The notes under the pieces are model-generated. The model was not told where the DNA came from. It did not search any database and was given only the letters and a program-made list of their open reading frames with translations. The translations under genes and the position numbers were made by a program. 45,817 nt of DNA from a virus. The stretch is taken from the IMG/VR virus record IMGVR_UViG_3300007539_000002, positions 1 through 45,817 of that record, one strand, 5' to 3'. This document shows, one piece after another, positions 15,837-45,817 of this stretch; position 1 is the first letter of the stretch, and each line of letters begins with the position of its first letter.

Positions 15837-15856
15837 TTTTCCCTCCGGTGGTGGAA

Positions 15857-16087
15857 TCAGTCAGGAGTCCCGTCTTCCGGGGCCCCATCGGGCAAAAATC
15901 GAATATTGAGCGGGGGTTGGGCGGGGTTGCGGCGCGACACGATGTACCACGCCGCATTGCACGCCGGGCAAAGCATGTGCACGTAGCGCTCACGCCACAC
16001 ACCCGGCTCGGTCACGTCCCGCAGCACAATGCGCACCGTACGGCCGTAGTGCGCAAAGCAGTCGTCCGGGCGGCCAGATGGAGTCAC
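15857..16087 (-). CDS. Small Cys-containing protein, first gene of late unit
   Basis: 76 residues from a GTG at 16087. The frame is open further upstream, so the start is uncertain and no SD is seen. A CPAC pair (MLCPACNAAWYIV) and a second possible ligand suggest a zinc knuckle. It lies 20 bases before the next gene and downstream of an all-A/T stretch (16110-16118) that may be its promoter. It could also be non-coding. Confidence 0.4.
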   Translation of the reverse strand: MTPSGRPDDCFAHYGRTVRIVLRDVTEPGVWRERYVHMLCPACNAAWYIVSRRNPAQPPLNIRFLPDGAPEDGTPD

Positions 16088-16109
16088 ACACCGTGCAGAG
16101 CGACGGGGG

Positions 16110-16118
16110 TATATATAT
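16110..16118 (-). promoter_or_regulatory. AT-only stretch, candidate late promoter -10 region
   Basis: Nine consecutive A/T bases (TATATATAT) in otherwise very GC-rich DNA, 23 bases before the first minus-strand frame. No good -35 is seen at the right distance, so a phage activator or other sigma factor would be needed. Confidence 0.35.
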
Positions 16119-16313
16119 GGGACCCGGACGTGGGTTCCCGTGCAGCACGGTGCGGGGGGTGCCGGTGCCGGTGCCCCGTGCACGGGCGCAGTCGGCCCGC
16201 GCCTAACGCTCGTGCAGACCGTGCGAGCCCCCGCGCAGCCTTCGGCTCACATGCGTGCACGGCGGCTCTGCCGCACCGTCCTCTGTTCGTGTTCATGGTT
16301 CAAGCTCTCCCTT

Positions 16314-16333
16314 CCCTTGCTTCTAAGCAAGGG
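16314..16333. other. Perfect hairpin CCCTTGCTT/AAGCAAGGG
   Basis: Nine paired bases with a two-base loop. No T-run follows on either strand. It could be an operator, an RNA hairpin or a weak terminator for transcription entering from either side. Confidence 0.4.
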
Positions 16334-16532
16334 ATTCGCCGGATGGTCGGCCCGGTGCCGTCGGCCCTGAGCAAGAACCCAACAGGGCCAACCTCACCTA
16401 CGGTGGCCGTCGAGAATCCAGAACTGCAGCGCGATCATGCAGGCGCTGTGCGGATAATGCGTGATCACATAACGCAGGCCACCACATGTCTCTCCTGCGC
16501 ATAATGCCCACGGAGAGAGGCGTCAGTGGAGC

Positions 16533-16561
16533 TTGACCCGGACCGTTGGCCCTTGTAGCAT
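16533..16561 (+). promoter_or_regulatory. Candidate sigma70-type early promoter
   Basis: TTGACC, 17 bases, TAGCAT: five of six -35 and four of six -10 bases match the sigma70 consensus. Transcription would start near 16568 and give a leader of about 445 bases before the first early gene at 17014. An inverted repeat (16561-16600) covers the start region. Confidence 0.5.
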
Positions 16562-16822
16562 GGTGGCGTCGGAACGGCAGCCCAAGCCGGACGCCGACCA
16601 GTGAGCCGAAGCCGCCATGCACTACGGCGGGGGAAGGGTTGCACGGTAGCGGTGGAAACGAGCCGCCTAAGTACAACGAGCCGTGACTCTCCACTCAGCG
16701 AAGCTGACAGAGCAAGCCGAATGACCCCGTAAGGGGTCTGCCATCGAGAATGGTCCGCGACCTTCGGCCCAAGAGCCCCTAACGGGGAGAGCACGCCTGA
16801 CTGCTACGTAGGAGATTCCTGC

Positions 16823-16868
16823 GCCCTGAGACTTGTCTCAGTGTGCGGTGTCTCCAGACGGCAGGGGC
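16823..16868 (+). ncRNA. Possible branched RNA in early leader
   Basis: GCCCT (16823-16827) can pair with GGGGC (16864-16868, one G-U). Inside are GAGAC-TT-GTCTC and a second arm closed by TGC/GCA with GTCT-CC-AGAC. The result is a small three-way junction in the long early leader. Pairing by eye only. Confidence 0.35.
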
Positions 16869-16911
16869 AAAGAAATACGAGCAAAGACGACAGCCCTACG
16901 GGGGCAAGAAC

Positions 16912-16966
16912 GGAAGGCATGGTCACGCTGAACTTGTTCAGCGTGGGGTTCGAGTCCCCACCTTCC
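16912..16966 (+). ncRNA. tRNA-like branched RNA in leader of first early gene
   Basis: GGAAGG (16912-16917) pairs with CCTTCC (16961-16966). Directly inside the 3' strand is a T-arm: TGGGG, loop TTCGAGT, CCCCA (16944-16960), matching the tRNA T-loop consensus. The rest is one hairpin, CGCTGAAC-TT-GTTCAGCG, in place of the D and anticodon arms. At 55 bases it is far too short for a normal tRNA, and no CCA or anticodon loop is present. Acceptor stem plus T-arm is the minimal substrate recognised by RNase P, so it may be a processing signal. An old tRNA-derived attachment site is the alternative, but no integrase is present. Confidence 0.5.
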
Positions 16967-17013
16967 TATGCGTGCAACTCTGCACGCCATTCCACCACAC
17001 GGAGTAACGCATC

Positions 17014-17337
17014 ATGACGAACACGTTTCCCAAGCCGTACATCAACACGATCCCTGCCATGAGTCACGGGCTCTATGTCTTCGACAAAGTCGTCTGCAAC
17101 ACCGACAACGGAGCCGATCGCGTAGTGGTTCTCGCGGTCTGCAAGTGTGGCGCTGTCCAGAGCTTGCTCGTAGAGCCGTGCGACCTCCATTCGTGGCAGA
17201 GCGGCATGTTGGCCCAAAACGCCTTTCCGTACCTCAGCGAAGCTGAGCGTGAGGCGATGATCTCGCAGACATGCCCCGCATGTTGGGAGGCCATTGCCGC
17301 TGAGGTGCCGGAAGACTGGTTCGGCGACGACCAATAA
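17014..17337 (+). CDS. First early gene, possible zinc-ribbon protein
   Basis: 107 residues. ACGGAG lies before the ATG, and CCACCAC at 16992-16998. Two Cys pairs, CKC (43-45) and CPAC (87-90), could bind one zinc. The C-terminus is acidic (VPEDWFGDDQ). The stop is two bases before the hammerhead ribozyme. Being the first early gene, it could act in host takeover. No family is recognised. Confidence 0.75.
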   Translation: MTNTFPKPYINTIPAMSHGLYVFDKVVCNTDNGADRVVVLAVCKCGAVQSLLVEPCDLHSWQSGMLAQNAFPYLSEAEREAMISQTCPACWEAIAAEVPEDWFGDDQ

Positions 17338-17339
17338 CA

Positions 17340-17393
17340 GCTTCGCTGATGAGGCCTGAATGGCCGAAACGACCCCTTGGGGTCGTCCGAAGC
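17340..17393 (+). ncRNA. Type I hammerhead ribozyme
   Basis: All core bases are present. Stem I is GCTTCG (17340-17345) with CGAAGC (17388-17393). The core is CTGATGA (17346-17352). Stem II is GGCC (17353-17356) with GGCC (17362-17365) and loop TGAAT. GAA follows at 17366-17368. Stem III is ACGACCCC (17369-17376) with GGGGTCGT (17379-17386). The cleavage-site triplet is GTC with C17 at 17387. The 10.1-11.1 G-C and 15.1-16.1 A-U pairs also fit consensus. The open end is at stem I, so it is type I. It fills the gap between two early genes and should cut the mRNA after 17387, leaving about 38 bases of leader before the next ATG. Confidence 0.92.
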
Positions 17394-17425
17394 AACATGC
17401 ACAACCCACCACAGAAGGAGCATTT

Positions 17426-17620
17426 ATGCTCAAGTTCGACCGCATGACCGTTGCCGACCTGAATCTGGCGCTGTACCGCGCTGAGCAGGCCGGACGTTGG
17501 CAGGAAGCCGACGACATTGCTCTCTACCTGCGCTCAATTGCGCAAGACTCCATCACGCAGGCTATGCGGGACATGCCTGCAGCACCCGCAGCGCTGTACA
17601 ACTGGGAGGCGCGAGTATGA
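17426..17620 (+). CDS. Small early protein
   Basis: 64 residues. The start at 17426 has AAGGAG five bases upstream and CCACCAC at 17406-17412; the hammerhead lies just before. It is entirely helical (VADLNLALYRAEQAGRWQEA and following), like a small tetratricopeptide-type hairpin. Its TGA overlaps the next ATG. Function unknown. Confidence 0.7.
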   Translation: MLKFDRMTVADLNLALYRAEQAGRWQEADDIALYLRSIAQDSITQAMRDMPAAPAALYNWEARV

Positions 17621-17790: not shown

Positions 17791-17839
17791 AGGCGCGACT
17801 GCTTTGCAGTGTAAGCGGGTGTCACAGCCCGTCGCGCCT
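17791..17839 (+). ncRNA. Compact three-way-junction RNA before the AAA+ gene
   Basis: AGGCGCGAC (17791-17799) pairs fully with GTCGCGCCT (17831-17839). Inside lie CTGC-TTT-GCAG and CGGG-TGTCACAG-CCCG; the second arm abuts the closing stem, as in a T-arm, though its loop is not tRNA-like. It starts seven bases after a stop codon. The rest of the 146-base leader (17785-17930) has another hairpin GCCGC-TTC-GCGGC, then CCACCAC at 17912-17918. Confidence 0.5.
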
Positions 17840-17930
17840 CTGCCGCTTCGCGGCGACTTGCGGTACCGTTGGCCCTCTACTACCTTCGGAGCCGTTGTAC
17901 ACTCAGCCCTTCCACCACACGAGGCCCAGA

Positions 17931-22177: not shown

Positions 22178-22345
22178 GTGGTCATTGAGATTCACCCTAT
22201 GTACTACGAGGACGGCCCCGCTTCTGTCACCGCACTTACCGTCCGGTCGCCACAAGGTGATACGCTCAGGATCTTGAGATTTCTGGGCGAGAACCCTGAA
22301 GTAGTGCGCACCGCAATCGCAACCGCAATGGAGGAGGGAGCATGA
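22178..22345 (+). CDS. Small early protein
   Basis: 55 residues from a GTG at 22178; ATG at 22199 is the alternative. Its stop overlaps the pentapeptide-gene start (ATGA) and the frame is open throughout, which supports it. The SD is weak (GGGGGCGC). A beta-hairpin start (VVIEIHPMYY) is followed by a helix (VVRTAIATAMEE). A CCACCA sequence lies upstream at 22153-22158. Confidence 0.5.
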   Translation: MVIEIHPMYYEDGPASVTALTVRSPQGDTLRILRFLGENPEVVRTAIATAMEEGA

Positions 22346-22917
22346 GCGAGATCGAAATCAGAGACAACAAGGGCATCGTGCTGCACACCGTAGAGGGAGA
22401 GAGTCTTAGGGGAGCGCTTCTCATGAGAGCGGATCTCGCGGGAGCGGATCTCAGGGGTGCCGATCTGAGGGAAGCGGACCTCAGGCGTGCTGATCTCATG
22501 TGTGCTGACCTCAGGGGAGCGGATCTCACAAGAGCGTATCTCGTGGGAGCAAATCTCAGGGGAGCGAATCTCAGTGGAGCGTACCTCACGGGAGCGGATC
22601 TCAGGGGGGTTGATCTGATGGAGGCGGATCTGGAGATGTCGCTTCTCGTGGGAGCGAATCTCAGGGGCGCGAATCTCAGTGGAGCGAATCTCAGGATTAC
22701 TTATCTCAGGCGTGCGGATCTGAGGGAAGTGGATTTCAGGGGTGCGAATCTGGAGTTGGCGGATCTCAGGGAAGCGGATATCACGGGAGTGAATCTCACA
22801 GGAGTGAATCTCAGGGTGGCGAATCTCGCGGGAGCGGATCTCAAAGGAGCGGATCTCAGGGGAGCGAATCTCAGGGGAACCCTCCTCGAAGGAGTGAGGT
22901 TGGGAGGTGACGCATAG
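22342..22917 (+). CDS. Pentapeptide-repeat protein
   Basis: 191 residues. After about 20 N-terminal residues it consists of roughly 32 repeats of A(D/N)LXX, predicted to form a right-handed square beta helix. Some proteins of this fold (MfpA, Qnr) mimic DNA and bind gyrase; others have no known role. The DNA is a matching array of 15-base units (GCGGATCTCAGGGGA-like), which could expand or contract by slippage. The strongly charged faces of Arg and Glu make protein or nucleic-acid mimicry possible. GAGGAGGGAG lies before the start. Confidence 0.9.
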   Translation: MSEIEIRDNKGIVLHTVEGESLRGALLMRADLAGADLRGADLREADLRRADLMCADLRGADLTRAYLVGANLRGANLSGAYLTGADLRGVDLMEADLEMSLLVGANLRGANLSGANLRITYLRRADLREVDFRGANLELADLREADITGVNLTGVNLRVANLAGADLKGADLRGANLRGTLLEGVRLGGDA

Positions 22918-23411: not shown

Positions 23412-23415
23412 TTCG

Positions 23416-23448
23416 AGGGGGCCCCTGCGGGGGCCCCCTTTTTTTTTG
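23416..23448. terminator. Strong intrinsic terminator, probably bidirectional
   Basis: GGGGGCCCC-TGC-GGGGGCCCCC followed by nine T. The loop is between convergent genes (plus gene ending 23411, minus gene ending 23452). The T-run serves the plus strand. The reverse direction has the same stem without a good U-tract. Confidence 0.92.
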
Positions 23449-45484: not shown

Positions 45485-45817
45485 TCAAGCTCCGTCCCAC
45501 GGAGTTGCGTTCCCATCACCGACGACCTGTGCATCGTTGATGGCTGCAGTATTCACGTCCACGTACCCGACGCGCCAGAGCTTGTCTGAAGCCGCTACAG
45601 CCGCGCTCAAGGCCCCTCCTGCGGGCCACGCTTCCACAGTAGCCACAAGGCTTGTCATGGACTGTACGCGGAAGTACTCAAGCTCACCCGTGCTGTCCTG
45701 CCAGAGCCAGAGTTCGCCCGTGGTGCTGTTGTCCGGGGCCTGCGCGTCGAGGAAGTCCGTGAGGTTTACCGCGGTGGTGGTGTTGCTCGTCGTGGTCGTG
45801 ACCGTGTCCGTGATGAA
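45485..45817 (-). CDS. Beta-rich tail appendage protein, C-terminal part (continues at 507-1)
   Basis: This is the second half of the gene that starts at 507. Stop TGA is at 45485-45487, three bases before the next ATG. Bases 45695-45817 repeat 1-123. The encoded part is a beta domain with FLDAQAPDNSTTGELWLWQD followed by YFRVQSM, as in small phage fibre or collar domains. Confidence 0.8.
   Translation of the reverse strand, partial: FITDTVTTTTSNTTTAVNLTDFLDAQAPDNSTTGELWLWQDSTGELEYFRVQSMTSLVATVEAWPAGGALSAAVAASDKLWRVGYVDVNTAAINDAQVVGDGNATPWDGA
45695..45817. repeat. Terminal direct repeat, right copy
   Basis: Identical to 1-123. See left copy. The unique genome is 45,694 bases. Confidence 0.95.

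Follow-up and report, generated by a model that had tools for sequence, protein, structure and literature searches.

The first and second early genes of a viral genome are separated by a genuine type I hammerhead ribozyme, predicted to cleave itself. It occupies positions 17340-17393 of the + strand of the window (the whole stretch of DNA that was analysed, 45,817 nucleotides), where inspection of the sequence reveals a complete motif with all invariant bases and three stems. The reading that we favour, with a probability of roughly 0.82, is that the ribozyme would cut the early transcript between genes 1 and 2 and separate their messages. It should be stressed that message cutting by phage hammerheads has already been proposed. 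The main interest lies in the strength and breadth of the positional rule that these ribozymes follow, in a blind spot of the library commonly searched for them, and in a possible exchange of unrelated cutters within one phage lineage.

The ribozyme and its early-gene setting

All the bases of the hammerhead core are present, i.e., C3 U4 G5 A6 N7 G8 A9, G12 A13 A14, the A15.1-U16.1 pair and H17. Stem I consists of 6 bp (17340-17345 paired with 17388-17393) and is open-ended, and loops close stems II and III, which is the type I topology (Table 1). The three helices are backed both by the predicted fold and by covariation in relatives. Folded in isolation, the ribozyme strand adopts exactly the hammerhead structure (-26 kcal/mol, z -3.67). 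The loop of stem II, UGAAU, fits the pattern UNANU seen in close viral relatives. This loop is kept within the viral subclass, and a tertiary partner for it may lie in the flanks of stem I. The cut is predicted after C17 (17387/17388), at the established consensus position of hammerheads.

Chance origin of the motif is excluded. An order-1 simulation of 320 Mb with the dinucleotide make-up of the window produced no equally good motif. With much looser stem limits it produced 3, which amounts to an expectation of 0.0009 per window. A covariance model, R1, was built from 22 other viral hammerheads, the copy of the window being left out. Its sole match in the window is the ribozyme (60.9 bits, E 1.6e-16), and it has no match in 102 kb of other phage DNA. 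Strict and relaxed scans, like R1, detected no further hammerhead on either strand of the window.

The hammerhead models of Rfam release 15 behave differently from this phage-derived model. None of the Rfam families, hammerhead families included, matches the window at its gathering score. The top match, RAGATH-1-hammerhead (RF03152), reaches 33.0 bits, whereas gathering requires 56.3; its E value is 0.092 when the full window is searched. This failure reflects a limit of the library, because 11 loci (among L009-L077) holding dozens of textbook hammerheads likewise gave 0 matches at gathering. On these 11 loci, the Rfam gathering test is insensitive to the phage type I subclass. Since Rfam cut-offs overlook this subclass, ribozymes are likely to be undercounted in viral data. 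The covariance score that an earlier note on this DNA had put forward as a check is thus poor with Rfam and excellent with R1. The other claims of that note on the motif itself stand: sequence, fold and left-out model agree with a type I hammerhead having all conserved bases and stems, the consensus position agrees with its predicted cut at 17387/17388, and the ribozyme does start two bases past a stop codon, the TAA of gene 1 (17335-17337).

The window is an IMG/VR virus record bounded by a 123-base identical direct terminal repeat (1-123 and 45695-45817). The repeat makes it probable that the record covers a complete genome, about 45.7 kb in length. Matches to terminase, portal, major head and internal virion proteins mark this uncultured virus as a tailed phage, probably of podovirus-like type. 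The structural genes run leftward, and a rightward early block starts from 17014. This block encodes an AAA ATPase and, further along, a DUF3799/exonuclease VIII-like nuclease. Gene 2, whose start codon lies 38 nt from the cut, has no match in PHROG or Pfam. The CCCACCACA motif of its leader recurs before genes 1 and 4, as well as in the relatives L121 and L124.

Some other features of this genome can be mentioned. The leftward structural genes and the rightward early genes are separated by about 1.1 kb without convincing genes (15850-17010), and positions 16700-17012 are strongly structured as RNA (z -3.48). A motif CCrTTGGCCC, possibly an early promoter signal of the phage group, is found at 16542 and 17865 (+) of the window and near 530 (- strand) of L121. 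Positions 22342-22917 (+) encode a protein with a 15-nt (5-residue) period nearly throughout and a match to phrog_7713. It is likely a pentapeptide-repeat protein and a possible DNA mimic. A strong terminator-like hairpin (11 bp and a T-run) at 23415-23447 (+) lies where the rightward early block ends and meets a leftward helicase gene.

Table 1. Features of the ribozyme, of its early-gene setting and of related phages. Positions are those of the window unless another locus is named.
Feature	Position	Strand	Basis or remark
Likely early promoter, TTGACC-17-TAGCAT	16533-16561	+	consensus scan (not above shuffled expectation), conservation
tRNA-like element without D-arm, before gene 1	16911-16970	+	fold z -3.14; pairing kept in L121
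Early gene 1, 107 aa	17014-17337	+	ORF; weak phrog_20898 match, E 7e-5
Stem I 5' strand, GCUUCG	17340-17345	+	sequence, fold
Catalytic core CUGAUGA (C3-A9)	17346-17352	+	sequence, covariance model R1
Stem II, GGCC-UGAAU-GGCC, 4 bp	17353-17365	+	sequence, fold
Core GAA (G12-A14)	17366-17368	+	sequence, covariance model R1
Stem III, ACGACCC-CUUG-GGGUCGU, 7-8 bp, including A15.1-U16.1	17369-17386	+	sequence, fold
Predicted cleavage site (C17 = 17387, new 5'-OH end = 17388)	17387/17388	+	hammerhead consensus position
Stem I 3' strand, CGAAGC, predicted to stay on the downstream message	17388-17393	+	sequence, fold
A/C-rich unstructured leader, with CCCACCACA (17405-17413) and AAGGAG (17415-17420)	17394-17425	+	72% A+C; fold -1.6 kcal/mol
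Early gene 2, 64 aa, ATG 17426	17426-17620	+	ORF
Second three-helix tRNA-like element (hairpin and GUCACA-loop arm), tentative, after gene 3 and before gene 4	17791-17840	+	fold z -2.98 alone
T-loop hairpins of two related phages	L141 near 13538, 13121, 10728; L137 near 976, 510	-	followed by GCAGUAC and CCACCAC leader

A group of viral hammerheads and its positional rule

When 2.9 million viral contigs were scanned with a pattern describing type I hammerheads with a GGCC stem II, at least 119 stretches matched, as against 8 in 84,980 prokaryotic genomes. Most of the listed matches, together with many nearby copies beyond the reach of the pattern, pass a strict base-pairing test. The UNANU-loop form, to which the ribozyme of the window belongs, is found at 35 viral loci among the matches listed and has no match in the 84,980 prokaryotic genomes. 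A BLAST search of the ribozyme against 50,697 named phage records retrieved no match, and one close viral hammerhead gave chance-level matches only in named phages. Being rare in sequenced prokaryotic genomes, these hammerheads are therefore mainly a feature of uncultured viruses.

Many of these ribozymes occur in series. Among the matches listed, 26 of the 76 contig strands with a strict hammerhead carry 2-8 of them on the same strand, and the copies of such strands lie a few hundred bases apart, in successive gene gaps. In L009, L020, L041 and L056, hammerheads of one contig tend to have an identical stem I sequence, and the cut messages would therefore start with the same bases.

The alignment of 119 distinct viral copies to the model indicates that 99% of pair cells are standard and that 12 of the 14 pairs vary on both sides. 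The covariation score is 0.704, versus 0.144 after shuffling and at most about 0.08 after sliding, in an alignment that was fitted to the structure, so that the score leans towards it.

The position of the ribozymes was compared with random positions, using the 112 distinct copies with enough flank among the matches listed. The stop codon of the upstream gene lies between -13 and +20 nt from the ribozyme 5' end in 82% of them (13% at random), and 77% have a Shine-Dalgarno start no more than 60 nt past the cut (13% at random). Both are found in 62% of the copies (2.2% at random). The median distance is 0 nt from stop to ribozyme and 27 nt from cut to start, and the leader between cut and start has about 68% A+C in the viral copies. 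With 2 nt to the stop, 38 nt to the start and 72% A+C, the ribozyme of the window follows the same rule, and these distances, like its score with the left-out model, make it a member of the viral intercistronic type I group.

Since these ribozymes abut a stop codon and lie close to the next start, their cut would separate adjacent messages and give the next gene a short open leader. This intercistronic position supports what had been proposed for the window from its sequence, namely, that the message is cut between genes 1 and 2 and that the gene 2 message would then start at 17388. The same proposal had called the position unusual. This does not hold, in view of the 62% given above and of the prophage clusters and HF1/HF2 cases described in 2011 (PMC3088659). 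The stop-abutting rule, the start about 27 nt past the cut and the same-strand arrays of up to 8 copies make the idea of message cutting directly testable.

Proposed message cutting and rival explanations

Once transcribed, the RNA would fold and cut itself at 17387/17388 without any protein. Hammerhead cleavage leaves a 2',3'-cyclic phosphate on the upstream product and a 5'-hydroxyl on the downstream one. The gene 1 message would terminate in stems II and III, about 50 nt downstream of the gene 1 stop codon, and carry the 2',3'-cyclic phosphate. This structured end would likely resist 3' exonucleases. The message running from gene 2 onward would start with the 5'-hydroxyl, a 6-nt scar and the A/C-rich unstructured leader. 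The type I layout would keep nearly the whole ribozyme upstream and leave the downstream leader free for ribosomes. As an outcome, gene 1 and the remainder of the early operon could each have their own lifetimes and translation rates. On the cautionary side, 4 of 18 consensus hammerheads were found inactive in vitro (PMC3088659).

The ribozyme could instead act as a switch, its cutting being gated by the translation of gene 1, whose ribosome, when at the stop codon 2 nt upstream, would cover stem I, or by a competing upstream fold. A stop codon does adjoin the ribozyme in most viral copies, but this may merely mirror compact genomes. The upstream sequence is also able to compete with stem I: the predicted stem I probability, 0.82 otherwise, drops to 0.15 once 50 nt of upstream coding sequence are included, and an alternative fold is isoenergetic. 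However, shuffling the upstream sequence does not weaken this competition, the mean stem I probability over 117 viral copies being 0.27 with the real and 0.24 with the shuffled sequence. The competing fold was therefore dropped as a regulatory switch despite being isoenergetic, and a conditional ribozyme appears improbable. In the same way, fold competition is a weak objection to self-cleavage, because other viral hammerheads and shuffled upstream sequence behave alike. If cleavage had been lost or were irrelevant, the element might be a passive structured spacer, such as a 3'-end stabiliser or a folding barrier. Its fold is stable, stems II and III are intact and the equivalent slots of relatives hold other hairpins. 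Yet a plain hairpin has no need of the full invariant core, which is kept in more than 100 otherwise diverged copies, and we regard this explanation as quite unlikely.

The likeness to a ribozyme could be incidental to coding sequence, as a frame of 86 aa that starts with an ATG within stem II (17360) continues into gene 2. The frame 17360-17620 is indeed open and GAGG stands 5 nt ahead of this ATG, but the odds of the motif arising by chance (0 in 320 Mb simulated) argue against such a coincidence. Moreover, ATG 17426 has the better Shine-Dalgarno sequence and the family leader motif, and the loop is not retained as a start codon in other copies. ATG 17360 was judged incidental as a start of gene 2, and the coding explanation very unlikely. 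It is hardly conceivable that the ribozyme belongs to a mobile or circular RNA element of the retrozyme kind rather than to an mRNA processing site. Eukaryotic type I hammerheads do reside in repeated elements (PMC6155905), but the genome holds a single copy, with neither flanking repeats nor a reverse transcriptase seen nearby. Furthermore, the viral copies follow the intercistronic rule, which argues against a mobile-element role for them. The separation of the messages of genes 1 and 2 is thus the reading that we retain.

RNA elements of related phages and known systems

Searches of viral contigs with the AAA ATPase or gene 1 identified no relatives of the phage. Relatives were found through the terminase (66-79% identity) and all lack the hammerhead. 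The capsid protein led to four others, more distant, which lack it too and have no convincing T-loop or tRNA-like element. The ribozyme is thus not conserved in place, and this, like its single copy in the window genome, weighs against the favoured reading.

Other RNA elements occupy comparable positions. In G003 and G004, two relatives whose early region is covered, long gaps contain 11-16-bp hairpins with T-loop-like loops (UUCAAA, GUCAAA, GUCAUA, UUCAAC), located 6-25 nt past stop codons; a CCACCAC-type leader comes next, and then a Shine-Dalgarno sequence. Among about 130 loci, a descriptor for post-stop T-loop hairpins was positive in those two relatives only, and the pattern of the G003 hairpin retrieved only its own contig. 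These hairpins may resemble minimal substrates of RNase P or RNase Z, and their shape raises the hypothesis that either enzyme cuts them.

The window itself carries a tRNA-like element before gene 1 (16911-16970), composed of an acceptor helix, a CUUG hairpin where a tRNA has its anticodon arm, and a T-arm with a UUCGAGU loop. It has a weak Rfam similarity to mascRNA-menRNA (26.8 bits). A counterpart is found in the first ~85 bases of L121 (- strand), with helices that differ in sequence and pair in both phages; the CUUG loop, the UUCGAGU T-loop and a trailing 3' UAUG are kept. L124 has a T-arm element at the same place, then CCCACCACA. Pattern scans of other viruses for the D-armless element gave L121 again, ordinary tRNAs and two further matches. 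The second tRNA-like element (17791-17840) is tentative, its fold signal being absent in a longer stretch (z -0.11). It resembles the element located before gene 1 in L123.

One may tentatively propose, although we hold it to be rather doubtful, that the early-gene slot of this phage lineage is filled by interchangeable RNA cutters, i.e., hammerhead, tRNA-like elements and T-loop hairpins, the ribozyme having replaced a site for a host enzyme or the reverse. If true, the function would have been kept while the cutting chemistry changed, and the lineage would offer a natural experiment on the reason why early messages are cut in phages.

Hammerheads of all types were reported in bacteria and phages by Perreault et al. 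in 2011 (PMC3088659), and a 2020 review states that phages carry all three types (PMC7761336). The 2011 work describes prophage clusters in which hammerheads flank single genes and cleave in vitro, one cluster also doing so in E. coli, and proposes that clustered hammerheads cut long phage RNAs into short messages (PMC3088659). A 2017 review still called the role of hammerheads in prokaryotes open (PMC6155905). Neither a quantified stop-abutting rule nor a large group missed by Rfam was found in the literature searched, from which subscription journals were mostly excluded.

Like the prophage clusters, the ribozyme of the window lies beside genes in phage DNA. In contrast, it occurs only once, in an uncultured phage that was not encountered as a prophage, and the group to which it belongs has the strict stop-abutting place measured here in 112 copies and is very rare in prokaryotic genomes. 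In the haloviruses HF1 and HF2, a variant hammerhead precedes the first gene of an early transcript, whose mapped 5' end is no more than 3 nt away from the cut (PMC3088659). It shares with the window an early region and a place just upstream of a gene, whereas its core is a variant and precedes the first gene; that of the window follows the consensus and stands between genes 1 and 2. RAGATH-1-hammerhead has the same core and stem order, but the only counterpart of its additional 5' hairpin in the alignment is the end of the gene 1 coding sequence. The eukaryotic type I hammerheads of the Schistosoma type (PMC6155905) share the type I topology and consensus core. Unlike in these, stem I of the window has no internal loop, and the single strands that flank this 6-bp stem would have to provide any contact with loop II.
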